Of a DNA stretch of 42,628 bases, positions 1,762-37,465 are shown piece after piece. The stretch is from Spirochaetaceae bacterium. GTDB taxonomy: Bacteria; Spirochaetota; Spirochaetia; DSM-27196; SLAA01. Below the pieces are notes generated by a model, which saw only the letters and a program-made list of their open reading frames with translations, was not told where the DNA came from and ran no database searches. The number at the start of each line of letters is the position of its first letter. The first letter of the stretch is position 1. Location of the stretch: contig PWQX01000168.1 in NCBI GenBank assembly GCA_003556605.1, positions 1 to 42,628 of the forward strand, in the 5' to 3' direction. A program made the position numbers and the translations under genes.

Positions 1762-1777
1762 CGTTGACTCCCTTTAG

Positions 1778-2251: not shown

Positions 2252-2267
2252 GCTACCACCTTGTTTT

Positions 2268-2302: not shown

Positions 2303-2373
2303 CCTGTTAGCTATCGGTAATCCTAGTGGTACCTATCACCAATACCGTATTCCTTTATGATTTGCTCGAACAT

Positions 2374-3306: not shown

Positions 3307-3322
3307 AGCAGGAACTCCTTTT

Positions 3323-3341
3323 AATAACACTAAATGTTATT
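3323..3341. promoter_or_regulatory. Inverted repeat in the tctC leader, candidate operator
   Basis: AATAACA (3323-3329) and TGTTATT (3335-3341) form a perfect 7-bp inverted repeat with a 5-nt spacer. It lies between the -10 box and the ribosome site of tctC, where a bound repressor would block transcription. No regulator gene is adjacent. Confidence 0.5.
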
Positions 3342-21061: not shown

Positions 21062-21148
21062 TTGGGGTGAAGCCGATCTTGCCCTGTGAACCGGCCGGCA
21101 GCGCGGGTCGGTTTTGCGCCACGCGAAACGATAAGGAGGTACCTGGGT

Positions 21149-22141
21149 ATGAAACGCCTAACAACGGTACTGATTGCGTTGGTGTTGGTGTTCGGTGTCG
21201 GCTTTGCGCTGTTCTCCGCCGCAGAGCCGGACGTGCAGTTCGTTCGAATCGCTACCGGCGGCACCGGCGGAAACTTCTATCGCTTAGGAGCCGGAATCGC
21301 CTCGGTCTGGAATGACGAAGTTGAAGACATTGTCGCCTCCACCCAGTCCACAGACGGGTCGCCGCACAATGCCGAGTTGCTTGCCGCAGGTGAAGTTGAG
21401 ATAGCGTTCATGGGAGCCGATATTGCCCGTGACGCCTACCACAACACCGGCAGGTTTGCCGATGAGCCCGAGGGGTACTACCAGGCGCTCAACTTCATCA
21501 CCTACCTGTATCCGAACCCGCAGATGTTTCTGGTCATGGACTGGGCAGCCGACGAGATCGACACCATGGCCGACATCGCGGGCAAGCGTGTCTCGAAAGG
21601 GGCGATCGGCAGTCTTGGTGAGGTCTACTTCCTCGAGACGATGAAGGTGCTCGGCATAGATCCCGATGATGTAATTCAGGAGCACACGGTTCATGGAGCG
21701 GCCATCGACCAGGTCCGTGACCGCCATATCGACGTAGTGATGTGGCCGGATGCGGCCGGGTCGGCGAGCCACATGGAGATTCTTGAAACCGGTCACGCGG
21801 AAGCGCGCAGCGTCGACCCGGAGATTATCGAACACTTCACAACCGGCGCCTGGGACATCAATTTCGAGTACACGCTGCCGGCGGATACCTATCGAAATCA
21901 GCCCGAAGATGTTTACACCTTCGCGGCTCCCATTATTCTTCTCGCACATGCCGATCTTCCCGATGATCTGGTCTACGAGTTGACCAAGACGCTGCATGAA
22001 AACCAGCCGGCGTTGGTGGCAATCGCCGATCTTCTGGCGGAGTTCATGACGGTCGATGTGGCACTGGAAGGCCAGCAGATTCCGCTGCATCCGGGAGCCG
22101 AGCGGTTCTACGCAGAGGCCGGTGTCCTCGGTTCTAACTGA
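21149..22141 (+). CDS. TRAP transporter solute-binding protein, TAXI family
   Basis: 330 aa. Signal peptide (MKRLTTVLIALVLVFGVGFALF), then the family hallmark VRIATGGTGGNFYRLGAGIA (~33-52), ASTQSTDGSPHNAELLAAGEVEIAFMGAD and LYPNPQMFLV. TAXI proteins capture a carboxylate or amino acid (for example glutamate or 2-oxo acids) and pass it to a fused TRAP permease. The ATG at 21149 has AAGGAGGT 8 nt upstream; the longer open frame is not signal-peptide-like. First gene of the GntR-controlled operon. Confidence 0.93.
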   Translation: MKRLTTVLIALVLVFGVGFALFSAAEPDVQFVRIATGGTGGNFYRLGAGIASVWNDEVEDIVASTQSTDGSPHNAELLAAGEVEIAFMGADIARDAYHNTGRFADEPEGYYQALNFITYLYPNPQMFLVMDWAADEIDTMADIAGKRVSKGAIGSLGEVYFLETMKVLGIDPDDVIQEHTVHGAAIDQVRDRHIDVVMWPDAAGSASHMEILETGHAEARSVDPEIIEHFTTGAWDINFEYTLPADTYRNQPEDVYTFAAPIILLAHADLPDDLVYELTKTLHENQPALVAIADLLAEFMTVDVALEGQQIPLHPGAERFYAEAGVLGSN

Positions 22142-22200
22142 GTGCCGGTATAGCTACGCCGCGAGTGGGCGGCACCGAGCAGCTCGCTTTCTCAGGTAAG

Positions 22201-22240
22201 GCCCGTGCGGAGCGGCCGGCCGAAGGGCGTCCGCGCGGGC
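22201..22240 (+). promoter_or_regulatory. Stem-loop between TAXI binding protein and TRAP permease
   Basis: GCCCGTGCGGA (22201-22211) pairs with TCCGCGCGGGC (22230-22240) with one G-U pair. A smaller GTGCCG/CGGCAC pair precedes it right after the binding-protein stop. No T-run, so processing or stability control is more likely than full termination. Confidence 0.6.
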
Positions 22241-22265
22241 TGCGCTGAGTTTGAGACCATCGCGG

Positions 22266-22293
22266 TAAATCCGAAAGAGTAAATCCGAAAGAG
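22266..22293 (+). repeat. Perfect 14-bp tandem duplication at the TRAP permease ribosome site
   Basis: TAAATCCGAAAGAG occurs twice in a row, and the second copy runs into the AGAGAGGA ribosome site of the permease gene. A recent slippage event that could change translation strength. Confidence 0.8.
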
Positions 22294-22303
22294 AGGAACA
22301 GCC

Positions 22304-24331
22304 GTGAGCCAAAAGGACAGCGGGGGAGAATCGGAAAAGCAAGCGTTATCGGAGGAGCGCGGGCCTGGTCGCCGAGAGTCGATCGCCGAGCAGGACATCA
22401 TCGACCTGTCCAAGCTGGATGCCTCGCAAAGCTCGGGACCCCAGACAACCTATGAGCTCACCGGTGCCTGGTTCTGGATCTTCACGGGGCTTGCGATCAT
22501 TTCCGGAGTATTCCACTTCTACACCGCCGGCTACCGCACGCTGCCGGCAATGATGCAGCGTCCTACACATCTAGCGTTCATCCTGGTTTTCACCTTCATG
22601 CTGTACCCCGCCTTCAAAAAGGATCTTACCCGCAATCGTCCGAGCGTGTTCGACATTATGTTGGCTGTTCTCGCCGTTGCGGGCGCACTGTATCTGGTTT
22701 TCAATATTCGCGCCATTGCCGAGGCACGGGGCCGTGTGTCGCCGCAAGAGATGGTTATGGGCGTGGTCTTCATGGCCGTTCTCATTGAGGCCGGAAGGCG
22801 TGCGATCGGCAAGTTCATGCTCATCTTCGCAACGGTATTCATCGCCTACCTGTTCGTGGGGCCTTGGCTTCCGGGTACTATACTGCGGCACGGCGGATTC
22901 ACTTTGGCGCGGGTGGTCTCGCACATGTACACCAGCATCGAAGGTGTGTTCGGTATAGCCGTGGGAGTATCGGCGACCTATGTCTATTTGTTCATTATCT
23001 TCGGAGCATTTCTCAGTAAGTCGGGGACCACCCAAGTCTTTGCCGACCTGGCGCTCGCCGCCGCCGGACATACAGCCGGCGGCCCTGCTAAGGTCGCTAT
23101 CATAGCAAGCGGACTGATGGGCACCGTCCAGGGTTCTTCCGCCGCTAACGTGGCGGCCACCGGCCTGTTTACGATTCCGCTGATGAAGAGTCTCGGGTTC
23201 AAGGGCTATTTTGCCGCCGGAGTAGAAGCAGTCGCGTCTTGCGGCGGTCAGTTCCTGCCGCCGGTGATGGGTGCCTCTGCATTCATCATGGCCCAATATC
23301 TCGGCCGGCCGTACGCCTATGTTGCAGCCGGAGCCCTATTGCCGGCACTCTTGTACTATGCCGCGGTATTCCTGCAGGTGCACCTGCACGCCCGCCGCAG
23401 AGGCATGGAAGGGATCGATCGCAGACGGCTCCCGGCACTGGGTGGTGTGCTGCTGAGAAAGGGACATCTACTGCTTCCGATCGTGATCCTCGTTGGGATG
23501 ATCGTGATAGGCTTCACCGCGCTGTACTCCGCTTTCATGTCGACGATCGCGATTTTTCTCATCAGCTCGCTGCGAAAGGCGACCCGCATGTCGCTCGTCG
23601 ATGTCGTCGACGGCCTACGCATGGCCGCGCGCAGTTGCATCACGACGGCGCTCGCGTGTGCGATTGTGGGATTCGTGGTCGGAGCGGTAGCTTTGTCCGG
23701 GCTTGGAATGCTTATTACCCAGCAGATCGTGCGCGCCGGCGCCGGCCTGCTGCTTCCCACGCTTCTCATCGCAGCAGCCTCGTCGTTGGTTCTGAGCTTC
23801 GGGCTGCCGACTACGTCGGTGTACATTATCACCGCTACGCTGGTGGCGCCGGGGCTGGTACAGGTCGGTCTTCCGCCGCTGGTAGCGCACTTGTTCGCCT
23901 ACTACTGGGGCGGCGTATCGGCTATCACCCCGCCGGTCGCTCTGGCGGTATTCGTGGGCTCCGGCATCGCAGGGTCTCCCTTGATGAAGAGCGGCTTCAC
24001 GGCGATGCGGCTCGGGATCGCGGCCTACATCGTACCGTTCTACTTCGCTTTCTGGCCGATGCTGATCACCCGGGATGCCCCACCGTTTCAGATCGCGCTG
24101 GCGATTCTCGGTGGAATCGTGACAATCATCTGTCTGGCAGGCCTTGGAGAGGGCTATTACTTCCGTCCCCTGCCGTGGTACAAGTATACACTGCTGTTGG
24201 TCGCGGTTCCGCTGTTGATTGCGCCGACGCTATGGTCGCAGCCTGCCGGAACGGCGATTGTTGCGTACATTGTGATCTCGGAGTTAATACTGAGACGTGC
24301 GAGAAAAGCCGACACAGCCGTGGCGGCCTAG
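22304..24331 (+). CDS. TRAP transporter fused permease subunit (4TM/12TM)
   Basis: 675 aa membrane protein with the DctQ-like and DctM-like parts in one chain, the usual partner of TAXI proteins. A ~45-residue polar N-terminus precedes the first TM. The DctM part begins around residue 125 and contains ETGRRAIGK-like EAGRRAIGKFML, GTVQGSSAANVAATG (~275, ion/substrate loop), GGQFLPPVMGASAFIMA (~310), GLPTTSVYIITA and YYWGGVSAITPPVALAVF (~535). The start is GTG at 22304, 6 nt after a GAGAGGA site. Sodium-coupled carboxylate uptake; substrate unknown. Confidence 0.93.
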   Translation: MSQKDSGGESEKQALSEERGPGRRESIAEQDIIDLSKLDASQSSGPQTTYELTGAWFWIFTGLAIISGVFHFYTAGYRTLPAMMQRPTHLAFILVFTFMLYPAFKKDLTRNRPSVFDIMLAVLAVAGALYLVFNIRAIAEARGRVSPQEMVMGVVFMAVLIEAGRRAIGKFMLIFATVFIAYLFVGPWLPGTILRHGGFTLARVVSHMYTSIEGVFGIAVGVSATYVYLFIIFGAFLSKSGTTQVFADLALAAAGHTAGGPAKVAIIASGLMGTVQGSSAANVAATGLFTIPLMKSLGFKGYFAAGVEAVASCGGQFLPPVMGASAFIMAQYLGRPYAYVAAGALLPALLYYAAVFLQVHLHARRRGMEGIDRRRLPALGGVLLRKGHLLLPIVILVGMIVIGFTALYSAFMSTIAIFLISSLRKATRMSLVDVVDGLRMAARSCITTALACAIVGFVVGAVALSGLGMLITQQIVRAGAGLLLPTLLIAAASSLVLSFGLPTTSVYIITATLVAPGLVQVGLPPLVAHLFAYYWGGVSAITPPVALAVFVGSGIAGSPLMKSGFTAMRLGIAAYIVPFYFAFWPMLITRDAPPFQIALAILGGIVTIICLAGLGEGYYFRPLPWYKYTLLLVAVPLLIAPTLWSQPAGTAIVAYIVISELILRRARKADTAVAA

Positions 24332-24347
24332 CGAAGGACGGAATGCC

Positions 24348-25343
24348 ATGACGGGGAAGAATGGAAAGGTGATCGTTTTTGCGACAAGTTTTCTCGACGA
24401 GCCAGTGACCGAGCTGTATGAAAGCGACCGCCCGCGGCGTTTGCTGGAAGAGGCGGCCGCGCGACATCAGATGAAGATTGACTACCGGTGCACGCGAAAA
24501 CCCAGCGAACCGCTCTCGCCGGAAGAACTAGAGGGCGCGGTCGCGGTGATCGCCGACTTAGAGCGCTACAACGACGAGTTGCTGCAGCAGGTTGGGGCCG
24601 GTCGCGGCGGCTCGCTCGGTTTGATCGCTCGTTACGGCATAGGATACAGCAACGTCGACATCGAAGCGGCCAAGGACTGTGGAGTTCTGGTGGCCAATGC
24701 GCCGGGGGCGAACGCGCCGCCGACCGCTGAATGGGCGGTAGCGACGATACTCGATGTGGCCGGCCGGCGCATCGCGCATCACCAGCGCGCGGCTGCGGGG
24801 AAGACGAAGACCGGACCGGGGCGGCTCGACGTGCGCCAAAGAACGCTCGGGGTGATTGGAAGCGGGGCGATCGGAAAGCTGGTGGTGCAGCTGTTGGAGG
24901 GGTTCGAGATGCGGGTGCTGGCCTACGATCCGTACCCCGATCAGGCGTGGGCACGCGAAAACGCGGTGGAGTACGTAGACCTGCCGACCTTATGCCGGCA
25001 GGCCGACTTTATCACGCTGCACGCCTCCGGCGGCAAACAGATCATCGGAGAGGCGGAGCTGGCCCAAATGAAGCCCACGGCGGTACTCGTGAACTGCGCG
25101 CGCGGCGCGCTCGTGGACAACCGCGCCGCCTACTTCGCAGTCAAAGCAGGGCAGCTGTGGGGCTACGGGCTTGATGAGGTCTGGGAACACCCCGATCTAC
25201 CGCCGGCCGGCATCAACATTATTCTCAGTCCGCATGTGGGCTCGGATACCGATGAGGGCAAGCTTGGGATGCAACTGATGTCGGCCGAAACGGTAGTGGA
25301 GTTCCTCAACGGCGAGACGCCGCAGCACACCGTTAACGTGTAG
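24348..25343 (+). CDS. D-isomer-specific 2-hydroxyacid dehydrogenase (phosphoglycerate-dehydrogenase-like)
   Basis: 331 aa. Rossmann motif GSGAIG (171-176) with the NAD-type Asp in AYDPYPD (194), catalytic Arg252 (NCARGALVD), Glu280 (DEVWEHP) and His296 (SPHVGSD). The N-terminal substrate domain has ARYGIGYSNVD. The ATG at 24348 is used; it follows a GAAGGA site, and the gene begins 16 nt after the TRAP permease stop, so it is in the same operon. It probably reduces or oxidises the 2-oxo/2-hydroxy acid taken up by the TAXI-TRAP system. Only distantly like the other dehydrogenase at 9700. Confidence 0.9.
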   Translation: MTGKNGKVIVFATSFLDEPVTELYESDRPRRLLEEAAARHQMKIDYRCTRKPSEPLSPEELEGAVAVIADLERYNDELLQQVGAGRGGSLGLIARYGIGYSNVDIEAAKDCGVLVANAPGANAPPTAEWAVATILDVAGRRIAHHQRAAAGKTKTGPGRLDVRQRTLGVIGSGAIGKLVVQLLEGFEMRVLAYDPYPDQAWARENAVEYVDLPTLCRQADFITLHASGGKQIIGEAELAQMKPTAVLVNCARGALVDNRAAYFAVKAGQLWGYGLDEVWEHPDLPPAGINIILSPHVGSDTDEGKLGMQLMSAETVVEFLNGETPQHTVNV

Positions 25344-25356
25344 CCAGCCGCCCGCA

Positions 25357-26560
25357 CTATAACTCGTAGTCGCGATGACTCTGCGGATCGGTCCGCACGA
25401 AATACCAGTCCCGCATGAAACACCCGACCGGAGCGTTTGACGTGCTCACCAGAGCTGTCTGACCGCGGCCGGTTACCGGCAGCACCCTGCCGTCGAGATG
25501 CGGGACTGAATGGTCGGCGAACCACCGCCCGATCTGATGCTGCATCAACTGTGCGCGCTCATCGTATTCTCCGAGTGGATAAACATTATGCACCTCGTCC
25601 GGATCGCTTTGCAGGTCATAGAGCTCGTGAGGACCATACGGATACCGGTGAACATATTTCCATCTGCTATCACGAATCATGTGAACAGGCCCATACTCGC
25701 TGAACACCACCAGATAATCGCGCTGCACGGTCTGTTGATCTGTGTGCGCATTCAGCAGCGGCACAAGGCTGGTACCGGGTCCGACAGCGTTTACCGGGTG
25801 TTCTATGCCCGCGTAATCCAGGACTGTCGGCATGATATCGTAATGGCTCGTCAACTCCGAGCTGCGCGTGTTTACGTTGAGCACACCGCCGTGCGAAAAG
25901 ATTGCCGGCACACGAACCGATGTTTCGAACATATTGGGCGGGAATGTCGCATTGCCTTTCCCGTACAGGCCGTGATGTCCCATATTCATCCCATTATCAC
26001 TCGTAAAAACCACTAGGGTATTCTCAAGCATGCCCTGATCTTCTAAGAATCGCAGCAGCCGTCCGATGTTCCGGTCCATGCAATCGACAGCCGCATAGTA
26101 GCCCGAGAGCACCTGACGTCGCTCCTCGCCATTAAACGGTACGGGAGCGGTATTCGCCTGTAAGGTGTGAACGGCAACGTCCGGAACACAACGGAAGGGA
26201 CATGATTCGTAGTACTTGTTGTACACCTCGTGCGGGTGATGCTTCCTTCCCCACGGACTATGCGGCGCCGTGTAGTGAACGGATAGATAGAACGGCTGCG
26301 GCGTTGACCTTACGCGCTCCAAGAATCGCACGGCGTAGTCTGTGATAACGTCGGTCACGTACCCCGGGTAGACTTCAGCGCGCCCTTCAGCGTCCACCAG
26401 CCTGGTGTCATAGTACGGTCCTGCTCCAAACGGGTGAACCAACCAGTCTCGGAATCCATGCTGCGGGAGGTGCGAGTTGCCGAGGTGCCATTTACCGAAA
26501 ACGCCGCAGCGGTATCTTCGTTATCATTCAAATGCTGCAGCACAGCGATGATTTGATCCT
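25357..26560 (-). pseudogene. Sulfatase, frameshifted and missing its N-terminal catalytic region
   Basis: A 361-codon open frame (25357-26442) carries the middle and C-terminus of a type I sulfatase: SVHYTAPHSPW, the metal/active-site FTSDNGMNMGHHGLYGKGN, SHYDIMPTVLDYAG and a C-terminal WKYVHRYPYGPHELYDLQSDP. In the same frame upstream lies YRCGVFGKWHLG, the invariant GKWH motif, with no start codon before it and stops at ~26522-26527. One frame over, IIAVLQHLNDN continues the family pattern, so a single missing base near 26517 (restoring ...NEGY) explains the break. Nothing resembling the Cys-x-Pro-Ser-Arg formylglycine site is found further up. Both lesions imply an inactive gene. Last in the leftward URO-D operon; convergent with the dehydrogenase at 24348. 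Confidence 0.7.
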
Positions 26561-26883: not shown

Positions 26884-27969
26884 CTACATCTTCAGCAGTG
26901 GACGCAGCGTGTCGATTTCTTTCTGATTTGCAACCATGATATACAGATAGAGACCGGCGTAGTCCAGCGAATCCATCAGGAGCCGGATTTCTTCCGGCGT
27001 GAACGAGCCTCGAATCAGCAATGGGCGCTTCGCCCGCTGCACCTTCTGAAAATGGGGAACCATCTCGGCAATCGGCGGTCCGCCGACGTCGTTGTTGATC
27101 TCGAAACAGCGGATCTCCTCGATCTCCAGCAGGCAATCAAGCACGAACATAGAGGTAGCATGAAGGTGCATAAAACAGGAATCGAAACTGCTCGCCACCA
27201 GCCGATCCACCGGCTGTAGGTAGCGCTTGTAGAGGTCCGGAGATATCACCGCTACCGCATCCTCCTGAAGCCGCGCAATCGGTCCGGGTGCCCACAGCTG
27301 GTACTGAGCATCGTAATCCCCGCCGCAATACAGCGGGATTCGTTCCCACGCCGCCTTGGTGATGTCGATGAAGAAGTGCCCAAGCCGCACGAGAAGCTCC
27401 TCCGCCTTTTCCGGCTGCAGCATCAAGTCAATAGCAGTCTGTTCATGCCCGCGAAGCGAAACAGCATAATCGAGCGGACCCACCAGCGTCCCGTGCGAAA
27501 CCGGAAACCGACCGTCTGAGCGGCGCACCAATTCGTCGATGAACTCAATGTAAGTCTGAAACCAGGGAGCGTTGCGGTGTGAGTCCAGCGAGACGTCGCG
27601 GACCTCGTTCCAATCGAGAGACCGGTCTAGGGCCACCACGTTACCCGGAAGCACCCGCATATCGCTTCCAAGAGTGCCGCAGCCCCAGAAGATCGCCTGT
27701 GAGGGCGAGGCGCCGCGCAGAATATCGTCTTCAATTGTCTCGCCTTCTCTGAGCAACCGCTCTTGGTCATCGAGAAAGTCGCGTGGGTTCACCATATCAG
27801 GCGTCAGGACTCCGTCGGACGGCCACGCGGCGCTCGCGGCAAACTCTTCCAAAGGAAACCAGCTCTTGAAGGAGAACCCCACAAGCGGCCTTGAAACCGA
27901 GTCCCGGTCCCAAAATTTCCGGTACCCTTCAATTTTCTTCGGATCGTTCCCGAACGGATAGCCTTCCAT
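26884..27969 (-). CDS. Uroporphyrinogen-decarboxylase-family protein, zinc motif lost (URO-D 1)
   Basis: 361 aa TIM-barrel protein of the URO-D/methyltransferase superfamily, whose catabolic members move methyl groups between a substrate and a corrinoid or other carrier. The family layout is recognisable (FWDRDSVSRPLVGF opening, SHGTLVGPLDYAV, central WAPGPIARLQEDAVAVISPDLYKRYLQP). At the position of the His-x-Cys metal motif it has His268-Leu-His270 (FMHLHATSMF), and the later cysteine is absent. It may bind a different metal or have another role. The ATG at 27969 follows AGGAGGAGG; the 11 codons upstream are not family-like. Likely co-transcribed with the paralogue at 28078-29139. Confidence 0.8.
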   Translation of the reverse strand: MEGYPFGNDPKKIEGYRKFWDRDSVSRPLVGFSFKSWFPLEEFAASAAWPSDGVLTPDMVNPRDFLDDQERLLREGETIEDDILRGASPSQAIFWGCGTLGSDMRVLPGNVVALDRSLDWNEVRDVSLDSHRNAPWFQTYIEFIDELVRRSDGRFPVSHGTLVGPLDYAVSLRGHEQTAIDLMLQPEKAEELLVRLGHFFIDITKAAWERIPLYCGGDYDAQYQLWAPGPIARLQEDAVAVISPDLYKRYLQPVDRLVASSFDSCFMHLHATSMFVLDCLLEIEEIRCFEINNDVGGPPIAEMVPHFQKVQRAKRPLLIRGSFTPEEIRLLMDSLDYAGLYLYIMVANQKEIDTLRPLLKM

Positions 27970-28077
27970 ATGCCCTCCTCCTCGCAGAGTACCCTCATCC
28001 ACAGCTCATACGCCACCGAACCGCAGCCTCAAATAGGTGTCTTACACGCTTCGGTACGCAGCGCCGGTTTCACGAGC

Positions 28078-29139
28078 TCAGCCGCAAAACGTGTGGGCTA
28101 CCTCTACCAACGCTTTCAAATTTGCAACCGGTGTACGGGGGGCGACCTCGCATCCTGATCCTAGAATGATCCCTCCGTCGAGAGCTTGGGTCGAACGCAG
28201 GCAGTGGTCAGCGCGTGAGCGCACCTCCTCCGGCGTGCCCTGTAGCAGTACCGTTGTCGGGTCAAGGTTGCCCATGAGAGCTACGCTGCCGGCAGTCAGT
28301 GCCTTCGCCTCCGCCATCTCTACCAGCGCGTCTATCTCCAGCACGTCTGCACCTGTCTGCGCCATCAGCGGTAAGATGCGTCTTGTGTCCCCGCAAATGT
28401 GCAGCACGGTCACGGCATCTTTTTCGCGGGCGAGCGCCTCGATCGCCGTGAATACCTTGCGCTCGTAGGGGAACACGTACTTCTCGTAGATAGTCGGTGA
28501 GATCATGCTCAGTGACGCCAATGAATCGCCGGCCTGCGCTACATCTGATCCCGCCTCCAGAACCGCCTTCAGAAAGGAGATCAGGCCGTCGGAGGCGATA
28601 TCCATGACTCTGAAGAGCTTCTCTTGCGCCTCCGGGTCTTCGTCGGTCTCCGCTTGCGCAATATCCATAAGAAACTGTTGAGTACCGCCGCAGAGGTAGC
28701 TCGCGATTGAAAAGGGACCGGTTCCCGGACCTCGAATCGCGACCTCATCGCCGAAATGCGTTCGCAGCTTATGCACCGCGTCGAGATATACAGGCATGCG
28801 ACCATCGGTGTATGGATCGGGTAGCTTGAGCCGGTCGACCTGGTCCAAGCTCTCCACCGCCGGCTTCACCAGGTGCGGCGTAGTGTCAAAGGGCTGCTCT
28901 ATCGCACAACCGTAGCCCTCGGCGATGTAGTACTGATCCGACTGTGCGACTACAACGTCATGGCCAAGAGTTTCCCATGTGCGGATGTGGGCTTCCGCCA
29001 TCCTCCCTGCGTCGGAGTTGTACAGCGAGATCGGGATCCCGGCCAGTGCCGCCCCGAAGTTCCCGTTGTACGGAGCCGCCGGAATCAGATCAGGTTTCCC
29101 AAGTTTCGCTGCAGCGAGGAAGCGCTCTCTCGGTTTCAT
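28078..29139 (-). CDS. Uroporphyrinogen-decarboxylase-family methyltransferase, MtaA/CmuA type (URO-D 2)
   Basis: 353 aa. Opening MKPRERFLAAAKLGKPDLIP and the barrel motifs match the MtaA/MtbA/CmuA branch, where a zinc ion activates a thiol for methyl transfer from a methylcorrinoid. The zinc ligands are intact: His247-x-Cys249 (LHICGDT) and Cys330 (GSGCEVAPRTP). ATG at 29139, after GAGGG. Leftward; upstream of URO-D 1 and the broken sulfatase. No corrinoid-binding protein gene is in the window, so its partner must be elsewhere or it uses a free cobamide. Methylated substrate unknown. Confidence 0.85.
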   Translation of the reverse strand: MKPRERFLAAAKLGKPDLIPAAPYNGNFGAALAGIPISLYNSDAGRMAEAHIRTWETLGHDVVVAQSDQYYIAEGYGCAIEQPFDTTPHLVKPAVESLDQVDRLKLPDPYTDGRMPVYLDAVHKLRTHFGDEVAIRGPGTGPFSIASYLCGGTQQFLMDIAQAETDEDPEAQEKLFRVMDIASDGLISFLKAVLEAGSDVAQAGDSLASLSMISPTIYEKYVFPYERKVFTAIEALAREKDAVTVLHICGDTRRILPLMAQTGADVLEIDALVEMAEAKALTAGSVALMGNLDPTTVLLQGTPEEVRSRADHCLRSTQALDGGIILGSGCEVAPRTPVANLKALVEVAHTFCG

Positions 29140-29338
29140 GCCAATTTTTCCCTCTTCGCCTGCCAAGCCTGATCTGCAGCCGGGAAAGTTGTTTTCACCA
29201 GCCGCCGGAGGCAATGAACAACGGCCGGAACAATTCGGCACCGTGCTGCACCAGCCGCATAGCAGCCTATCCCAAAAGCGCATCGATGTCACCACCGGCT
29301 GCCGCGGAACGGGGCTGCGGATCAGCGGCGGTTGGACG

Positions 29339-29491
29339 CGCGAGCTTGCTCGCGTGGACTACCGTCCGCTGCAACCGCTGGGTGGCCGGCGCCACGCGCC
29401 GGACAGACGGCGGATGGTAATCCGCAGCCCCAATGGCGCGGCGCGTAGCGTCCGCGCCATCCGCCGATCATCAAGGCCGATGACCTTGATG
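29339..29491. repeat. Dense run of inverted repeats in the URO-D divergent gap
   Basis: The 433-base gap 29140-29572 has no gene but holds at least five hairpins in its centre: CGCGAGC/GCTCGCG (29339-29354), CCGGCGC/GCGCCGG (29386-29402), CGGAT/ATCCG (29411-29424), ATGGCGCGG/CCGCGCCAT (29433-29460) nested inside GGCGGAT/ATCCGCC (29409-29465), and CATCAAGG/CCTTGATG (29469-29491). It could be a structured leader, a tandem terminator block or a decayed repeat element. No cobalamin-riboswitch box was recognised. Confidence 0.6.
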
Positions 29492-29515
29492 TGGTCCGTC
29501 AAAACAACTTATCAT
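29486..29515 (+). promoter_or_regulatory. Candidate promoter for URO-D 3
   Basis: TTGATG (29486-29491), 18-nt spacer, TATCAT (29510-29515). The start codon is about 58 nt downstream. The -35 overlaps the last hairpin arm. Confidence 0.35.
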
Positions 29516-29572
29516 TCACCCGGCACACGCGAAGAGCATGATAAGCGAGCTTCTACTAAGGGGGTGACGGAA

Positions 29573-30733
29573 TTGAAGCACGAGATGACATCCCGACAAC
29601 GTGTCCTGACGGCCCTGAGCTTAAAAGAGCCTGACCGGGTACCAATTGATCTCGGCCAGGCCGGTGGAGACGGTATTACGATTCGCGCCTACGAGAACCT
29701 GATACGGCATTTGGGCCTACCCGACCGTCAAATACGCATCAGCGCTAAGTCGTCTCAGTCGGCCTTGGTAGACGACGACGTGCTCGAGCGGTTTCGCGTA
29801 GATTTCCGCCGACTTGATTTAGGCCCTCCTGACGGCTGGAAAGATCAACCTGTTGGTGAGGACGGCTATATCGATGAGTTTGGGCTCGTCAGGAGACGGC
29901 CGCCCGGCGGGTTCTATTACGATTTAGTAGCTTCTCCAATGGCAGAAATAGACTCGGTGGAGGGAATAGCGCAATACCGCTGGCCGGATCCGGACGATCC
30001 GGGCCGTTACCGGGGGCTCAAAGAGCGAGCGGAGCAGCTGTACAACGAGACGGATTATGCGGTTGTGCTCCAGGTGAATTGTGCGTTCTTTCTGCGCTGT
30101 GCGGAGCTGCGGGGGTGGGAGAGTTTCTTCATGGACCTCGCCGGCGATCCGGATTTCGCCTCCGCGCTGATGAACCGTTACTTGGACATTAAACTGAGAA
30201 TGGCCGAGAGAGCGCTCGAGGAGGTCGGCGAGAACCTCGACATCGTCTTAGTCAGCACCGACGATTTCGGCATGACCGACCGCACCATCGTTTCGCCGCG
30301 GATGTACCGGGACGTTATCAAGCCGATACAGCGGCGCATGTTCGACTTCTTCAAGGAAAGAACCCGTGCTGTGCGATTCTTACACACCGACGGAGCGGTC
30401 TACCCGCTCATTGAAGACTTTATCGAGCTTGGCGCTGAGGCGCTGAATCCGATTCAAGTGTCGGCGGCCGGAATGGGCGATACCGCGAAGCTCAAAGCCG
30501 AGTTCGGGGAGCGGTTGGCATTCTGGGGTGCGATCGACACCCATCGCGTGCTGCCCTACGGAAGGCCCGATGAGGTTCGCGAAGAAGTGCGCCGGCGGAT
30601 TAGAGATTTGGCACCGGGTGGAGGTTACGTACTATGCTCGGTACACAACATCCAGCCCGAAGTTCCTCCGGAGAATGTCGTCGCGATGTTCGACGCGGCG
30701 TATGAGCTGGGCCGCTATCCCTTGACCGTGTGA
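29573..30733 (+). CDS. Uroporphyrinogen-decarboxylase-family protein (URO-D 3)
   Basis: 386 aa. Typical opening MTSRQRVLTALSLKEPDRVPIDL, then the barrel with STDDFGMTDRTIVSPRMYRDVIKPI and a closing GGGYVLCSVHNIQPEVPPENV. At the metal position it has His271-Thr-Asp-Gly instead of His-x-Cys, and a Cys355 near the C-terminal motif, so it belongs to a different branch from URO-D 2. The start is set at TTG 29573, because AAGGGGGTGA (29558-29567) is 5 nt upstream of it and 17 nt upstream of the next in-frame ATG (29585). Followed closely by the zinc dehydrogenase at 30822. Methyl transfer is the family expectation, not shown here. Confidence 0.83.
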   Translation: MKHEMTSRQRVLTALSLKEPDRVPIDLGQAGGDGITIRAYENLIRHLGLPDRQIRISAKSSQSALVDDDVLERFRVDFRRLDLGPPDGWKDQPVGEDGYIDEFGLVRRRPPGGFYYDLVASPMAEIDSVEGIAQYRWPDPDDPGRYRGLKERAEQLYNETDYAVVLQVNCAFFLRCAELRGWESFFMDLAGDPDFASALMNRYLDIKLRMAERALEEVGENLDIVLVSTDDFGMTDRTIVSPRMYRDVIKPIQRRMFDFFKERTRAVRFLHTDGAVYPLIEDFIELGAEALNPIQVSAAGMGDTAKLKAEFGERLAFWGAIDTHRVLPYGRPDEVREEVRRRIRDLAPGGGYVLCSVHNIQPEVPPENVVAMFDAAYELGRYPLTV

Positions 30734-30821: not shown

Positions 30822-31877
30822 ATGAAAGCATTTTATTTACACGCCAAAGAAGACATTAGGCCGGTTGAGGTTGAAACGCCCACCCCGGGACAAGACGAGG
30901 TGCTTGTTGCTGTCCGCCGGGTAGGGATCTGCGGCTCGGACATCGAGTATTACCGTCACTTCAAGTGCGGTGCCTTTGTTCCGCACAGCCCCTTTGTCCT
31001 TGGCCACGAGCTCGCCGGCGAAGTTGCGGAGCTTGGGAACACAGGTGTTATCTCCGGAAATGGACAGGATGTTTACGAGGGGGCTCGTGTGGCGGTTGAT
31101 CCGTCCTTGCCATGTAGCCGCTGCGCTTTTTGTCGCTCCGGACGCTATAACCTCTGCACCAATATGAAGTTCTTAGGGTCGGCGAGTGTAGACCCTCACA
31201 TGGACGGGGCGATGCGCCAATATATGGTTATCCCGGCTCGTAACTGCTACGTCCTGCCGGAAAGCGTAAGCTTCGCCGAGGGGACTCTGCTCGAGCCTCT
31301 GTCGATTGCGCTGCACGCCGCACGGCGAGCAGCACCCATCGGCGGGCGGAGCGCGCTGGTCTTCGGCGGCGGCACGATCGGGCAGTTGCTGGTAACCGTT
31401 CTGCGGGTGTTCGGAGCTACCGGCATAGGCGTTGTTGACCCACTCGAGCATAGGCGCTCGGATGCGGCGAAAGTAGGAGCGGACTACGTACTTGACCCGT
31501 CTGCGCCTGAGTTTGCAGATCGTCTTAGGGAAGCGAACCCGCTGGGAGCGGAAGCGGTCTTCGAGGCGTCCGGTGCTCCTGCGGCGGTTCGCTCAGCGAT
31601 CCAAGCCGTGCAACGCGGAGGGACCCTGGTGCAGGTGGGGACAATTACGCGCGATATCGAAATCCCGGCGAATCTTATTATGGTAAAAGAGCTCGATGTG
31701 CTCGGTTCGTTCCGCACGGCTCACGAATACGGTATTGGCCTTGATTTTGTCGCCTCCAAGCGAATTGATGTATTGCAGCTTCTGACTCACGAGTTTCCCA
31801 TGGATGAAATCCAGCGCGCCTTTGCTGCTACTCAAGAACCTGGAAGCGTCAAGGTGCACCTGTCGGCAGAAACGTAG
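30822..31877 (+). CDS. Zinc-dependent medium-chain alcohol/polyol dehydrogenase
   Basis: 351 aa MDR-family dehydrogenase (sorbitol, L-threonine or L-idonate dehydrogenase type). Catalytic zinc ligands Cys37 (GICGSD), His62 and Glu63 (GHELAGE); structural zinc cysteines 98, 101, 104 and 112 (CSRCAFCRSGRYNLC). NAD-binding FGGGTIGQLL then VVDPLEHR, where the Asp suggests NAD. Probably oxidises a polyol or sugar acid to a keto form. ATG at 30822 after AGGATGAG. 88 nt after URO-D 3 on the same strand, and upstream of the DctPQM operon but separated from it by its own 362-base promoter region. Confidence 0.9.
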   Translation: MKAFYLHAKEDIRPVEVETPTPGQDEVLVAVRRVGICGSDIEYYRHFKCGAFVPHSPFVLGHELAGEVAELGNTGVISGNGQDVYEGARVAVDPSLPCSRCAFCRSGRYNLCTNMKFLGSASVDPHMDGAMRQYMVIPARNCYVLPESVSFAEGTLLEPLSIALHAARRAAPIGGRSALVFGGGTIGQLLVTVLRVFGATGIGVVDPLEHRRSDAAKVGADYVLDPSAPEFADRLREANPLGAEAVFEASGAPAAVRSAIQAVQRGGTLVQVGTITRDIEIPANLIMVKELDVLGSFRTAHEYGIGLDFVASKRIDVLQLLTHEFPMDEIQRAFAATQEPGSVKVHLSAET

Positions 31878-32239: not shown

Positions 32240-33232
32240 ATGAAGAAAGCGGTCTATTTTGCCGTTGTGCTAGTGCTGGTGCTCACCGCAGCGTGGGCTT
32301 TTGCCGGTGGTGCGGCTGAGGAGCGAGCGCGGATCGTAAACGTGGCATCCACATTCCCAGGCGGTTCACCGCAGGATGCAGGCTTAGACCTTTTTGCTGA
32401 GCTCATTGGGGAACGCAGTAATGGCCGTTTCGAGGTCATTGTTCACACAGGCGGAGCAATGGGGAGCGAGCGCGAAACGTACGAACAGCTCTCCGATGGT
32501 TCGGTTGAATTCGGTGCGGTCGGCAGCAATGATATCTCTACCTTCTATCCGGAATACGCTGTGTCGGAAGTGCCCTACATCTTTACCGATATAGACCAGT
32601 TCTGGGGTTATTGGAACGGCCCTCTTGGACGAGAGATTCATGATCTGCAAGAAGCGAACGATAACGTCAGGACTCTTGGTGTTGTGCTTCGCGGAGCTCG
32701 ATATCTAACTGCTAACCGACCGATCGAGTCGGTCGAAGATGTGCGAGGTTTGAGTATTCGGCTTCCCCCTGTTGAGTACTGGTTTGCGGTTTGGGAACAT
32801 TGGGGTGCGCTTCCGGAGTCAATCGATTTCGCTGAGGTCTACCTTGCGCTGCAGACAGGAACCGTAGAAGCTCAAGAGAACCCGCCTGAGACAATCGTCA
32901 ACTATAATTTCTACGAGGTGCAGGAGTATCTCATCGCGACTGAGCATATTTTCTCGGCGGCCCGCTATCAGATGTCGATGGATTGGTTCAACAGGCTCAG
33001 CGCAGACGACCAAGATATGTTCGTTCAGGCGATGGAAGAGGCCACTGCTTACGCGAACGAGCTGACCGCAGACGGTGATGAACAGTTCGTGCGGGAGCTG
33101 GTCGAAGAACACGGCATGACGCTTATTGAGGTCGATCAAGAAGAGTGGGCAGAGGCGGCGCGGCCTGTTTTAGAACGACTGGCGGCAGAGGAATGGGACC
33201 CCGATCACTACGCCGGACTGCTCGAACTGTAA
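32240..33232 (+). CDS. dctP: TRAP transporter solute-binding protein DctP
   Basis: 330 aa. Signal peptide ending WAFAGGAAEE (spirochaete style), then VNVASTFPGGSPQDAGLDLFAELI, GGAMGSERETYEQLSDGSVEFGAVGSNDIS, and the region with the ligand-binding arginine in GLSIRLPPVEYW and the ENPPETIVNYNFYEVQ loop: the classic DctP order. ATG at 32240, AAGGAGG upstream. Binds a sugar acid or other carboxylate; the downstream mannonate dehydratase points to a hexuronate or hexonate. Confidence 0.93.
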   Translation: MKKAVYFAVVLVLVLTAAWAFAGGAAEERARIVNVASTFPGGSPQDAGLDLFAELIGERSNGRFEVIVHTGGAMGSERETYEQLSDGSVEFGAVGSNDISTFYPEYAVSEVPYIFTDIDQFWGYWNGPLGREIHDLQEANDNVRTLGVVLRGARYLTANRPIESVEDVRGLSIRLPPVEYWFAVWEHWGALPESIDFAEVYLALQTGTVEAQENPPETIVNYNFYEVQEYLIATEHIFSAARYQMSMDWFNRLSADDQDMFVQAMEEATAYANELTADGDEQFVRELVEEHGMTLIEVDQEEWAEAARPVLERLAAEEWDPDHYAGLLEL

Positions 33233-33297
33233 ACACGTGACGATGAAACCGTAATCGTGAAAAACGGTTAGCGGTCCTATCGTTCACGGCATAAGGT

Positions 33298-33324
33298 GCG
33301 CCGCAGTCCTTTGGGCTGCGGCGC
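33298..33324 (+). terminator. Stem-loop between dctP and dctQ
   Basis: GCGCCGCAG (33298-33306) pairs perfectly with CTGCGGCGC (33316-33324) around TCCTTTGGG, followed by GTTTCT. Weak terminator or attenuator that would favour DctP over the membrane subunits. Confidence 0.72.
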
Positions 33325-33372
33325 GTTTCTGCCGGTCAAGGAACCAATTTCGGGGTTCAACGGAGTGAGCTT

Positions 33373-33882
33373 GTGAAAAGGGTACTCGAGTGGATAAGCG
33401 CAGCCGTCCTGTTGCTCATGTTCATTATGGTCATAACCACTGTAGTGTTTAGGAATTTTCTGAGCCTCCCGTCGTCGTGGTCGCAAGAACTGTCGCAGTA
33501 CATGTTCGTGATTATCGTGTTTACCGGTTCAGCCGCGGTTATGAAAGACGAAAAGCACATCAGGATCGATACAATTATGTTTCAGCTGCCGCCGAAGGCT
33601 CAACGGATTGCACGTGTCATCGGCCGCTTGTTGATTGCACCGTTCCTCTACGTGCTGGTGACAGGTAGCTTTCACAATATTCGTACCACCTGGGGTGTTT
33701 ATCTTCCAACGGTCCGGTGGTTTCGTATCGGTTGGATCTATTCAATCGTGATGATTTGCGGCGTCTTGATGTCGCTTTACCTCGTTATAAACCTCATTCA
33801 GGATCTTCGGGGACGGTATCAAACGGATATCAATGTAATGGGCACTGATCTAAGCGAAATCGGGGAGGACGCAGGTCAATGA
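33373..33882 (+). CDS. dctQ: TRAP transporter small permease DctQ
   Basis: 169 aa with four membrane segments: ~8-28, ~45-65, ~85-105 and ~130-150. The conserved FLSLPSSWSQELSQYMFVIIVFTGSAA and KDEKHIRIDTI patches of DctQ are present. GTG start at 33373 with GGAG 7 nt upstream. Overlaps dctM by ATGA, so the two membrane subunits are translationally coupled. Confidence 0.9.
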   Translation: MKRVLEWISAAVLLLMFIMVITTVVFRNFLSLPSSWSQELSQYMFVIIVFTGSAAVMKDEKHIRIDTIMFQLPPKAQRIARVIGRLLIAPFLYVLVTGSFHNIRTTWGVYLPTVRWFRIGWIYSIVMICGVLMSLYLVINLIQDLRGRYQTDINVMGTDLSEIGEDAGQ

Positions 33883-35171
33883 TCTATTTCATGACAGTCG
33901 GGCTGATTCTTCTGCTTGCCTTAGGGGTGCCGGTAGGGTTTTCGTTGGGTGTGGCGGCGCTTTTTGCGTATTTCGAAAGCACCGCCGGGTATATCATACC
34001 GTCCGTGCTTTCCCGACGTCTTATCTATGGACTCGACAACTTCTTGCTGCTGGCGATACCGCTGTTTATCCTGTCGGCAAAAATAATGAACACCGCGAAG
34101 ATCACGAGCAAGATCTTTCGGTTCGCTCATGCGATCGTCGGCTATTTGCCCGGGGGGCTGGGACATGCCAACGTAGTTGCCAGCTTGATCTTTGCCGGGA
34201 TGTCGGGCGCTGCGGTTGTCGATGCCGCAGGTCTGGGGCAGGTTGAACTCGAAGCCATGGAAGACGGCGGATACGACAAAGACATAGCTGTTGCCATTAC
34301 CGCCGCTTCATCGACAATTGGCCCAATCTTTCCCCCGAGTTTACCGATGGTGGTGTTCGGCTACATGTCCGGCGTTTCAATCGGCCGTTTGTTTCTCGGT
34401 GGCGTAGTTCCCGGGGTAATGATGACGCTCATACTTATGGCGATGGTGAGCTATTTCGCGCATAAGAACCAATACCCCAGGCTTCCATTCCCTAGCGTCG
34501 TGCACGTGGCGAAAAGCTTCCTTGAATCCCTGTTGCCGCTGCTGACACCGGTGATTCTGTTAGGCGGGATCTGGACCGGCTATTTTACTCCCACGGAGGC
34601 CGCCGCGGTAGCGGTTTTCTACGCTTTGATCATAGGGACATTCGCCCTCAAAGAGCTTGGCCTTCAGCAGCTCAAGCAGGTTTTGTTGGACACTGCACGC
34701 GAGACGGCGATCATCGGGTTTATCGTTGCGGCAGCAGGGTTTTACGGCTGGATGCTGATGCGATCGGGTCTTACCGTACGGATAGCGGCAACGCTGCTTA
34801 CGGTGAGCGATAACCCACTGCTCATACTTCTAGTGATCAACATTCTCCTGTTAATCGTGGGATGCTTTCTTGATCCCACCGTGGCGATCCTCATACTTAC
34901 CCCGCTGTTGATGCCTGCGATCGTTCGCGTCGGTATAGAGCCCGTTCATTTCGGCGTAGTGATGGTTTTGAACCTGATGATCGGTTTGCTCACGCCACCA
35001 TTCGGAATCGTCCTGTTCGTCATGGCGCAACTCTCGGGGCTCCGTTTCGGCCAGGTAGTTCGGGCTACCGCCCCATTTTTAGCTCCATTGCTGACCGTGT
35101 TGATCTTGATAGTACTGTTCCCCGGCCTCGTCACGGCACTTCCTGACTACGTATACGGGGTATTGCGATAA
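33879..35171 (+). CDS. dctM: TRAP transporter large permease DctM
   Basis: 430 aa, 12-TM ion-coupled permease. Family patches: LLAIPLFILSAKIM (~50), GGLGHANVVASLIFAGMSGAAVVDAAGLG (~90-120), SSTIGPIFPPSLPMVVFG (~145-160), GGIWTGYFTPTEAAAVAVFY (~230) and GLLTPPFGIVLFVMA (~370). ATGA overlap with dctQ. Followed 24 nt later by the mannonate dehydratase gene on the same strand, so uptake and first catabolic step are probably co-expressed. Confidence 0.94.
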   Translation: MIYFMTVGLILLLALGVPVGFSLGVAALFAYFESTAGYIIPSVLSRRLIYGLDNFLLLAIPLFILSAKIMNTAKITSKIFRFAHAIVGYLPGGLGHANVVASLIFAGMSGAAVVDAAGLGQVELEAMEDGGYDKDIAVAITAASSTIGPIFPPSLPMVVFGYMSGVSIGRLFLGGVVPGVMMTLILMAMVSYFAHKNQYPRLPFPSVVHVAKSFLESLLPLLTPVILLGGIWTGYFTPTEAAAVAVFYALIIGTFALKELGLQQLKQVLLDTARETAIIGFIVAAAGFYGWMLMRSGLTVRIAATLLTVSDNPLLILLVINILLLIVGCFLDPTVAILILTPLLMPAIVRVGIEPVHFGVVMVLNLMIGLLTPPFGIVLFVMAQLSGLRFGQVVRATAPFLAPLLTVLILIVLFPGLVTALPDYVYGVLR

Positions 35172-35195: not shown

Positions 35196-36281
35196 GTGGC
35201 AGACACGAAGATTGGTTTCGGATTCTATCACCATATGCTGAATGACGACGGCTATCGATTTGCTCGCCAGTGCGGAGCCACCCATGCAGTGGTGCATCTG
35301 GTGGACTACTTTCACAAGGGTTATCAGAATGATAATCATCCTGATAACCAGCCGGTCGGCGATAGCGACGGTTGGGGGCGCGCCGGTGCTACACGACACC
35401 TATGGACCTACAACTCGTTGACGAGGATTCGCGAAGATATGGCGAAGCATGGTCTGACATTGTATGCGCTCGAGAACTTTGATCCGGCGGATTGGTACGA
35501 CGTTTTGCTTGGAGGTCAAAAACGCGACGAACAGCTTGAGGTGCTCAAGGGTATTATCCGTGACGCTGGACGCGCCGGCATTCCGGTAATCGGCTACAAC
35601 TTCAGCATTGCGGGTGTAGCAGGCCGCATACAGGGGGCTTTTGCGCGGGGCGGGGCGCGGTCAGTAGGGGCCGATGGCGGGGAACATACGCCGATCCCGA
35701 ACGGTATGGTTTGGAACATGTGGTATGATCCGAACGCGCGGAGCGGGACCGTTCCTCAATCGGATGAGGATACTCTTTGGGCCAGGCTTGAGTATTTCTT
35801 GAATGCGGTGTTGCCGGTCGCTGAGGAAGCCGGCGTGAGACTTGCCGCGCATCCCGACGATCCGCCTTTTGCGAGTGTTCGGCAGCAACCGCGTTTGGTG
35901 TACACACACGATCGGTATCAGAAATTGCTCGACCTTGTGCCTTCATCCTCGAATGCGTTGGAGTTCTGCCTCGGCACGCTGCAAGAAATGCAGGACGGTG
36001 ATATCTATGAAACGATTGAGCGTCACGTAGGTGCCGGGCAAGTCGCGTATATCCACTTACGAAACGTCGTTGGAAAGGTCCCCAAATATCACGAGGTCTT
36101 TCTTGACGAAGGGGAGCTCGACGTCGTTCGCGTAATGAAGCTCTTAGATAGGCTGGGATACGAGGGCGTCGTCATTCCCGATCATACTCCCTTGATGGAT
36201 TGCACCGCGCCGTGGCACTCCGGCATGGCGTACGCTATGGGCTATATCAGGGCACTCAAGCAGTGTATCCAGAACCCATGA
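35196..36281 (+). CDS. uxuA: Mannonate dehydratase UxuA
   Basis: 361 aa TIM-barrel enzyme converting D-mannonate to 2-keto-3-deoxy-D-gluconate in hexuronate breakdown. Characteristic HPDDPP motif (RLAAHPDDPP), the metal region NALEFCLGT, AYIHLRNV and the closing Asp-His of VIPDHTP. Slightly shorter than E. coli UxuA, similar to other bacterial forms. GTG start at 35196; the AGGA site is about 12 nt upstream, a loose spacing. Directly after dctPQM, which supports a glucuronate/mannonate-type substrate for that transporter. Convergent with the enolase-superfamily gene. Confidence 0.92.
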   Translation: MADTKIGFGFYHHMLNDDGYRFARQCGATHAVVHLVDYFHKGYQNDNHPDNQPVGDSDGWGRAGATRHLWTYNSLTRIREDMAKHGLTLYALENFDPADWYDVLLGGQKRDEQLEVLKGIIRDAGRAGIPVIGYNFSIAGVAGRIQGAFARGGARSVGADGGEHTPIPNGMVWNMWYDPNARSGTVPQSDEDTLWARLEYFLNAVLPVAEEAGVRLAAHPDDPPFASVRQQPRLVYTHDRYQKLLDLVPSSSNALEFCLGTLQEMQDGDIYETIERHVGAGQVAYIHLRNVVGKVPKYHEVFLDEGELDVVRVMKLLDRLGYEGVVIPDHTPLMDCTAPWHSGMAYAMGYIRALKQCIQNP

Positions 36282-36295
36282 GAAACCGGCGTTGA

Positions 36296-37465
36296 TTATT
36301 TTACACTGAACCGTTGTAGCGCGGCTCTGTCGAGCTCTATTCCGAGGCCGGGCTTCGTGGGGCGGGATATCACGCCGTCGAGCATTTGTAGATCTTCTTC
36401 AACCAGTTCTCGTCGCAGGGTCTCTTCACATATCTGCGGCGGGAGGTACTCGATATACGGACAGATAGGCGTCACGAACGCCAAGTGAGCTGTCGCGGAA
36501 ACCGATATGCCGGTTTTCCAGCAGTGCGGTACAACCAGCCGTCCGCGTTCGCGAGCCATATCGCAGACAACCTTGGCTTCGGTGAGCCCGCCCACCCTGC
36601 CCACATCGGGCTGAACAACATCGAGCTTGCCGCGCTCCATAGCTTCTTCGAACTCAAAACGGGTCGCCAGCCACTCTCCCATCGCAATCTTCATGGGTGC
36701 AGCCTCGTGGAGTTTGGCATACTCGTCGAGATTGTCGACCCAGATGGGCGTCTCGAGAAAGAACAAGTCAAACTCTTTCCAATCTCGGACAACCGATATA
36801 GCCGCGTCAAAATCGTTCCACATGTACTGCACATCCACCATCAAAGCGATTTCAGGCCCGATTGCTTTGCGCACCCGCGCAATGATCTCGGTGTGGCGAT
36901 CGTAGGATTCCGAGAGGTTGTTGTGCGCGTACGGCCCGTTCAGCGTGACTTCGGCTTTCACCGCACGGAAGCCCAACTCCTTGGCACGCAGCGCCCACTC
37001 AATAAGGCTGTCGCGATACACCTCAAAGGACTCACCGCTTGGTTGTAACGATGCGTAGGGCGTCACGCTCTCGCGCGCATGTCCGCCGAGGAGCTCGTAT
37101 ACCGGCTTCCCTAAAGCCTTACCTTTAATGTCCCACAGCGCCATATCCACTGCGCCGAGGGCGTGAATAACCGCCCCGCGCCTGCCGTCCATCGCCGTGC
37201 CGATGTATACCCGCCGCCACAGTTGCTCGATATCAAGCGGGTCTTGGTCCAGAAGGAGATTCTTGATCCCAAGGCTCATCGTGTGGGTGCCCGGGGCTTC
37301 AACGCAGGCGCGGGCAATCCATGGATTGAGATCCGATTCACCCACCCCGGATATGCCCTCGTCTGTGTGCACTACTACAACAAAGCTGTCCTGCGCGCTT
37401 GAGGTTTTGCTCGCATCATAATTCGGGGCCAGCAGAACATGGGTTTCAATATCGGTGATTCTCAT
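36296..37465 (-). CDS. Enolase-superfamily acid-sugar dehydratase (mandelate racemase/muconate lactonizing type)
   Basis: 389 aa. N-terminal capping domain (MRITDIETHVLL) and (beta/alpha)7 barrel. Metal ligands Asp211 (MVDVQYMW), Glu238 (FFLETP) and Glu264 (MGEW); catalytic Lys170 (AVKAEV) and the Asp287/His314 dyad (QPDVGRVGG; VPHCWKTG). This set fits the mandelate-racemase subgroup, mostly sugar-acid dehydratases (galactonate, gluconate, rhamnonate and similar). The ATG at 37465 is preceded by GGAGG. Divergent from the SDR gene, convergent with uxuA. A second dehydratase next to UxuA suggests more than one epimer of a hexonate is used. Confidence 0.92.
   Translation of the reverse strand: MRITDIETHVLLAPNYDASKTSSAQDSFVVVVHTDEGISGVGESDLNPWIARACVEAPGTHTMSLGIKNLLLDQDPLDIEQLWRRVYIGTAMDGRRGAVIHALGAVDMALWDIKGKALGKPVYELLGGHARESVTPYASLQPSGESFEVYRDSLIEWALRAKELGFRAVKAEVTLNGPYAHNNLSESYDRHTEIIARVRKAIGPEIALMVDVQYMWNDFDAAISVVRDWKEFDLFFLETPIWVDNLDEYAKLHEAAPMKIAMGEWLATRFEFEEAMERGKLDVVQPDVGRVGGLTEAKVVCDMARERGRLVVPHCWKTGISVSATAHLAFVTPICPYIEYLPPQICEETLRRELVEEDLQMLDGVISRPTKPGLGIELDRAALQRFSVK

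Follow-up and report, generated by a model that had tools for sequence, protein, structure and literature searches.

Three neighbouring URO-D-family genes of a spirochaete as probable members of a dispersed corrinoid C1-transfer system

In acetogens, the MTI methyltransferases are substrate-specific, and the corrinoid protein together with the MTII enzyme can be shared among MTI enzymes, as described for the methanol system in the part of a 2026 study consulted here (PMC13391211). Within the URO-D superfamily, a His-Cys-Cys zinc site marks the S-methyltransferases, and in the O-methyltransferases the cysteines are replaced by carboxylates or non-coordinating residues, according to the portions of the work of Kountz and Balskus drawn on here (PMC10418091). 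The stretch analysed, hereafter the window, comprises the 42,628 nucleotides of contig PWQX01000168.1 from a sediment Spirochaetaceae bacterium (assembly GCA_003556605.1) and carries three neighbouring URO-D-family genes, UROD1, UROD2 and UROD3. A preliminary description had proposed that these genes, together with a zinc dehydrogenase and sugar-acid and sulfatase neighbours, may form a demethylation or one-carbon (C1) transfer route, possibly for O-methylated sugars. Our analysis shows that the genome has 18 URO-D genes, the trio included, which probably work as a hub-and-spoke corrinoid C1 system, the hub of which is encoded on another contig.

The three open reading frames (ORFs) were found in place at 26884-28002 (-), 28078-29295 (-) and 28979-30733 (+). 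UROD2 (241 bits) and UROD3 (79 bits) score over the Pfam PF01208 cut-off of 23.9 bits and belong to the URO-D superfamily, while UROD1 falls under it at 20.2 bits, with partial profile support. Against a UROD2 profile, UROD3 aligns over its full length (hhalign 99.9%, E 1.3e-33) and UROD1 is recovered as a remote relative (96%, E 2.7e-9) across residues 85-271 only. The adjacency of three paralogues was thus confirmed, UROD1 being only a remote one. By comparison with homologues, UROD2 probably starts near 29139 and UROD3 near 29585, both inside the listed ORFs; the two genes thus diverge without overlapping. The corrected models are UROD1, a remote URO-D-like protein of 372 residues (26884-28002, -), UROD2, an MtaA-like URO-D methyltransferase of 353 residues starting at MKPRERF (28078-29139, -), and UROD3, a URO-D protein at 29585-30733 (+). 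The intergenic region between the divergent genes (29140-29584) gave no Rfam match at the gathering score. Indeed, a scan of 133,470 bases from eight sources at Rfam gathering scores found no riboswitch, cobalamin or other, in this region or the hub, the sole match being one tRNA in L005.

The metal sites of the three proteins differ. In UROD2, His247, Cys249 and Cys330 are invariant in all 15 aligned relatives. They occupy the columns of the H-x-C and C residues in solved MtaA (4ay7), and the HICG and GC-AP columns are common to both proteins. These residues of 4ay7 are the zinc ligands of MtaA. The assignment of an MtaA-type site to UROD2 in the preliminary description is upheld, and among the trio this H-x-C...C site of MtaA and CmuA is present in UROD2 only. 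For UROD3, the earlier reading of His-Thr-Asp-Gly with a lone Cys355 had to be replaced: the site is H270-x-D272...H357, in which His270 and His357 are invariant (13/13), His357 (385-residue numbering, within SVHN) aligns with UROD2 Cys330 and the MtaA cysteine, and the cysteine previously named lies off the site, three residues upstream of His357. UROD1 carries His279-Leu-His281 without cysteines, as had been described; both histidines are invariant in 11 of 11 relatives, as is Glu301, and in the alignment the third ligand position of the window protein holds neither Cys nor His. Because of the site rule given by Kountz and Balskus in the portions consulted (PMC10418091), UROD2 would be a thiol-type enzyme and UROD3 an oxygen-type one.

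The three paralogues do not form the one ordinary clade considered in the preliminary description. In a tree of 84 de-duplicated proteins, built by a quick method without bootstrap and with the ligand columns removed, they fall in three separate supported clades; rows with fewer than 270 aligned residues were dropped (L003 of the window's genome among them), so that 17 of its 18 URO-D genes are included. UROD3 belongs to a group whose ligands, read in order, are His-Cys-His (HCH) or His-Asp-His (HDH): its clade of 17 comprises nine HCH and eight HDH members, with at least three changes between the states. These Cys/Asp switches at the second ligand within a single clade amount to a natural experiment in how sulfur and oxygen substrates are told apart at the metal site. 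One further URO-D gene of this genome (L001, 9094-10251) has a site that reads IGC, possibly through an alignment fault.

Profile and structure comparisons place UROD2 near MtaA. Its best solved relative is 4ay7 (E 1.7e-49, full-length alignment), although its score against TIGR01463 (MtaA/CmuA) of 210.1 bits is below the curated cut-off of 235.4 and it lies far below the NCBIfam MtaA equivalog cut-off. Against TIGR01463, UROD3 scores 56.3 bits and UROD1 gives no match; further, the UROD1 profile found no PDB sequence at E ≤ 0.1. A structure model of UROD3 of moderate quality (pLDDT 67.5, pTM 0.73) has MtaA 4ay7 as its top Foldseek match in the PDB.

The corrinoid machinery is found elsewhere in the genome. 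As the preliminary description stated for the window, neither corrinoid-protein nor activase domains were found on its contig by profile search. The genome-wide search it had called for recovered two B12-binding_2 matches, one in a 1268-residue frame that also carries Pterin_bind (MetH-like) and the other a stand-alone corrinoid protein on a second contig, C154 (L011, 5990-6658). The single RACo activase of the genome lies on the same contig (L011, 8919-10787), separated from the corrinoid protein by genes for a PocR/AraC regulator and DUF1638. A third Pterin_bind gene, on contig C98, is closest in NCBIfam to methyltetrahydrofolate:corrinoid/FeS protein methyltransferase and is followed by formate-tetrahydrofolate ligase (Fhs, 1055 bits, over the cut-off), an MTHFR-like protein, EtfB and EtfA. 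Because a corrinoid protein, an activase and a pterin-type methyltransferase are all present on other contigs, the window's lack of such a partner is no sign of a corrinoid-free route. Gene calls around the loci come from a home-made gene caller, and spurious ORFs are possible. The genome holds 18 URO-D genes and one broken remnant, with one member on contig C240; UROD2 is the only one with the His-Cys-Cys (HCC) site, and a transporter gene lies within ~5 kb of 14 of the 18, as a raw count. The remnant, of HCH type and broken into two pieces, lies directly upstream of the C98 methyltransferase gene (L091, 5438-5806). On contig C292, two URO-D genes and a TRAP transporter have as neighbours a Meth_synt_2 gene and an MTTB-family corrinoid-type methyltransferase gene (L001, 11268-13666). 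MtaB gave no match in this genome, and methanol via MtaB was consequently rejected as a substrate; in the class, 13 of the 198 genomes surveyed have MtaB.

Relatives supply the link between UROD2 and this hub. Orthologues of UROD2 (63-77% identity) occur in eight of 60 relatives, and those of UROD1 (75-82%) and UROD3 (72-83%) in three each. The window is of spirochaete origin: six of ten named loci, among them every one with a UROD2 relative at ≥60% identity, are from Spirochaetaceae, Spirochaetales or Treponema metagenome-assembled genomes. In G002, a member of the same genus, the order runs RACo, DUF1638, PocR, MtaB, corrinoid protein, an HCH URO-D, the UROD2 orthologue (76%), an SDR (88%), a His-Asp-Asn (HDN) URO-D and the DctM/Q/P orthologues. 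The MtaB gene inside this hub (methanol:corrinoid methyltransferase, 525 bits) occupies 4173-5540 of L035, on contig C153. Similarly, G038 has corrinoid protein, PocR, DUF1638, RACo and the UROD2 orthologue (77%), and G020 has a hub 84/80/74/62% identical to that of the window's genome with an HCC-type URO-D adjoining, which brings to three the relatives wherein an HCC-type URO-D adjoins the hub. In G030, the UROD2 orthologue lies near aldolase-like (84%) and HAD-like (71%) proteins, named by eye, whose relatives flank the hub of the window's genome. A corrinoid-protein partner for UROD2 is therefore supported by orthologue synteny in G002 and G038, and a C1-transfer or demethylation role for UROD2, as predicted from this synteny with corrinoid protein and activase, is well supported.

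The neighbourhoods of the other two orthologues point to sugar acids. In G002, the UROD3 orthologue adjoins UxaC, a glucuronate isomerase (633 bits); around the UROD1 orthologue of G050 are TRAP, PdxA, MR_MLE, SDR and 2-hydroxyacid dehydrogenase genes; and UROD1 relatives (50-51%) in G002 and G003 stand beside ABC transporter-like genes, recognised by eye, and an FGGY kinase, which was profile-scanned in G002. The trio itself is not a conserved unit, and that candidate was rejected: G002, G030 and G050 have two orthologues each (≥60% identity), always on different contigs, and no searched relative has two of the three on one contig.

A second line of evidence comes from a survey of 198 genomes of the class, in which the RACo, URO-D and MtaB counts were taken as the same draw. 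RACo is found in 84 genomes and a URO-D match in 112. RACo occurs in 58 of 65 genomes with at least five URO-D matches, in 16 of the 23 that have two to four, in four of 24 with one and in six of 86 with none (five or more against fewer, Fisher p 9e-22, shared ancestry ignored), URO-D matches being counted up to ~9 per genome. The seven genomes with five or more URO-D genes and no RACo are all less than 90% complete. Further, at least 28 of the 101 RACo places compared have a URO-D gene within 10 kb, where ~1 is expected, among the matches listed (150 URO-D places; the RACo list was used without the short second fragments that closed it). The association of URO-D number with RACo across the class gives good support to a C1-transfer role for the URO-D family. 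In one genus group, g73 (G158, G179, G184, G204 and G209), RACo is accompanied by none or one URO-D gene and probably serves another corrinoid system.

A mechanism can be proposed in which substrate-specific URO-D enzymes, many of them with transporter and catabolic genes of their own alongside, would pass methyl groups to one corrinoid protein that RACo would keep active. The pterin-type methyltransferase of C98 would then draw the methyl group off the corrinoid onto tetrahydrofolate, and the resulting methyltetrahydrofolate would be oxidised via the MTHFR-like/ETF and formate-tetrahydrofolate ligase steps. As an alternative or additional draw-off, UROD2, the sole thiol-type member, may act in the manner of MtaA and move methyl to or from a thiol. 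Carrier sharing of this kind has precedent because in acetogens the carrier and MTII can be shared among MTI enzymes, as far as the part of that study consulted goes (PMC13391211). UROD3, with H-x-D...H, would most likely remove O-methyl groups from a sugar acid, and UROD1, with H-x-H, appears to be a distant member with sugar-acid neighbours. O-Methylated sugar acids are plausible substrates, and 4-O-methylglucuronate may be suggested as a lead for UROD3 because of its H-D-H site and the UxaC gene beside its G002 orthologue.

An extension of this proposal to the whole class is tentative, and we regard it as unlikely rather than likely. It holds that the class might run an oxygen-independent network for demethylating O-methyl sugar acids, such as 4-O-methylglucuronate from xylan, with one corrinoid protein and activase serving ~18 dispersed URO-D methyltransferases. 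Their sites (His-Cys-Cys, His-Cys-His, His-Asp-His and His-x-His) would have diversified for hard oxygen substrates, UROD2 alone being of thiol type, and the methyl groups would be burned to formate via C98 for ATP. Among the publications listed by searches of the open-licence literature of PubMed Central, none dealt with the demethylation of O-methyl sugars or 4-O-methylglucuronate by corrinoid systems, with corrinoid O-demethylation in spirochaetes or with a hub-and-spoke system there. URO-D genes that lack a neighbouring corrinoid gene are easily taken for haem enzymes or orphans. If one carrier does serve many scattered methyltransferases, a role could be assigned to such genes across a whole bacterial class, and how anaerobes strip plant and algal sugars of methyl ethers could be tested directly.

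Various observations weigh against the hub-and-spoke reading. UROD1 is under the Pfam cut-off and its single-sequence model is unusable (pLDDT 40.4). In the window's genome, no URO-D gene adjoins the C154 hub, and the MtaB of the sister G002 hub is absent. The C98 methyltransferase scores 185 bits against a curated cut-off of 259, and the transporter proximity figure stands without a background rate. The co-occurrence statistic is uncorrected for shared ancestry, and RACo is also found in ten of 110 genomes with one URO-D gene or none. HemE too carries a histidine at the third position, so His357 of UROD3 may be an inherited catalytic residue rather than a metal ligand. Finally, the analysis establishes the genes, the site residues by alignment, the synteny of UROD2 orthologues with the hub, the co-occurrence with RACo and the C98 cluster, and from these we infer all catalysis, the use of one carrier by all the URO-D enzymes, the direction of transfer and the substrates.

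The sugar-acid neighbours named in the preliminary description are real. Downstream of UROD3 lie a zinc-type alcohol/polyol dehydrogenase (30822-31877, +), closest in NCBIfam to L-idonate 5-dehydrogenase and below the cut-off, and a DctP-DctQ-DctM TRAP transporter (32240-35171, +), whose G002 orthologues (85/73/84%) adjoin the UROD2 orthologue and corrinoid hub. They are followed by a UxuA-like mannonate dehydratase-family protein (35196-36281, +; PF03786, 158 bits), an enolase-superfamily (MR_MLE) sugar-acid dehydratase-like protein (36296-37465, -), a 33% relative of which lies beside the G050 UROD1 orthologue, and an SDR dehydrogenase (37534-38340, +) with an 88% orthologue adjoining the UROD2 orthologue in G002. 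On the other side are a D-2-hydroxyacid dehydrogenase (24297-25343, +), a second TRAP-type system of an NMT1_3/TAXI binding protein and a fused permease (21086-24331, +), and a TctA/B/C-type transporter (244-3330, -), its TctA family name carried over from scanned relatives, which is 95/89/93% identical to one on the G002 contig with the UROD3 orthologue. The sulfatase did not stand: the frame at 25357-26442 (-) covers only positions 136-301 of the 301 in the PF00884 profile with no open frame upstream, and this remnant was rejected as a functional partner. In a same-genus relative, a 38-residue remnant (L083, 13872-13985) that matches the C-terminus of the window zinc dehydrogenase at 60% identity adjoins the DctP orthologue; the order dehydrogenase-DctP therefore looks older than the split.

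Among the alternatives, the one that survives best places UROD2 in a methyl-sulfur or methyl-selenium system of the mlp-cluster kind, with UROD1 and UROD3 as unrelated neighbours. The HCC site of UROD2 fits the rule for S/Se-type enzymes in the consulted portions of PMC10418091, and the relatives of UROD2 are hub-linked; however, the G002 hub also has MtaB, a methanol-type enzyme, and we consider this explanation possible but rather unlikely. A similarly doubtful possibility is that UROD1 and UROD3 are lyases, decarboxylases or isomerases of sugar-acid catabolism on a recruited URO-D barrel. Both have sugar-acid neighbours, UROD1 has no third ligand, UROD3 shares its third-position histidine with HemE, and for the UROD3 model VIA-align gives near-tied scores to HemE chains (Z up to 24.9) and MtaA (Z 23.9). 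However, the Cys-keeping HCH members within the UROD3 clade, the position of MtaA as the best solved Foldseek relative of UROD3 and the tracking of RACo by URO-D number all argue against this.

A dedicated, self-contained and corrinoid-independent demethylation pathway for a single substrate, formed by the trio itself, is improbable. The three genes are adjacent here, and other adjacent sets exist, namely HCH-HCC-HDN in G002 and HCH-HCC-HCH in G055. The latter is an independent trio behind a DctM-family gene (L042, 6369-9756, contig C90), and in it an HCC member is again combined with H-x-H types, although the partners are not orthologous. Yet no searched relative keeps two orthologues of the trio on one contig, and even G050, assembled in six contigs, has UROD1 and UROD2 orthologues on separate contigs of 2.4 and 1.2 Mb; corrinoid and activase genes, moreover, are present in the window's genome. 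The version of this pathway that rests on an orthologous trio is largely refuted, and the neighbourhood conservation proposed as a check was not found in G002, G030 or G050. What stands of the route in the preliminary description is its C1 role, through UROD2-hub synteny and the URO-D/RACo link; what falls is the trio as its unit. Haem biosynthesis, suggested by the Pfam family name and a UROD2 match to TIGR01464 (HemE) of 107.2 bits, was rejected as next to impossible on these scores, the cut-off being 302.95 bits and UROD1 and UROD3 giving no match.

Set against described systems, UROD2 resembles MtaA, the methylcobalamin:coenzyme M methyltransferase (4ay7/4ay8), in its full-length alignment and site columns, and the UROD3 model has MtaA as its top Foldseek match. 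The trio differs from MtaA in that UROD2 is under the TIGR01463 cut-off, UROD3 has D and H for the two cysteines, UROD1 is without the site and a link to coenzyme M is unsupported. CdmB, the chloromethane methyltransferase (9rui; PMC13222342), is likewise a corrinoid methyltransferase of the superfamily and matches the UROD2 profile weakly (E 5.6e-7), but it works without zinc, according to the part of that report consulted, whereas UROD2 has the full HCC site. A type 1 mlp cluster has members of the Mlp2 and Mlp3 clades beside a corrinoid protein and Ram/RACE; the window's genome has a hub with corrinoid protein and RACo and no URO-D gene beside it. Unlike the mlp clusters, as far as the consulted portions of PMC10418091 allow, the URO-D genes of this genome are dispersed and mostly not HCC. 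As in the acetogen systems of MTI, corrinoid protein and MTII, the genome has a candidate for each role. It departs from them in the absence of MtaB and in having ~18 candidate URO-D methyltransferase genes per one stand-alone corrinoid protein, and it is this ratio of URO-D genes to carrier that is the unusual part.

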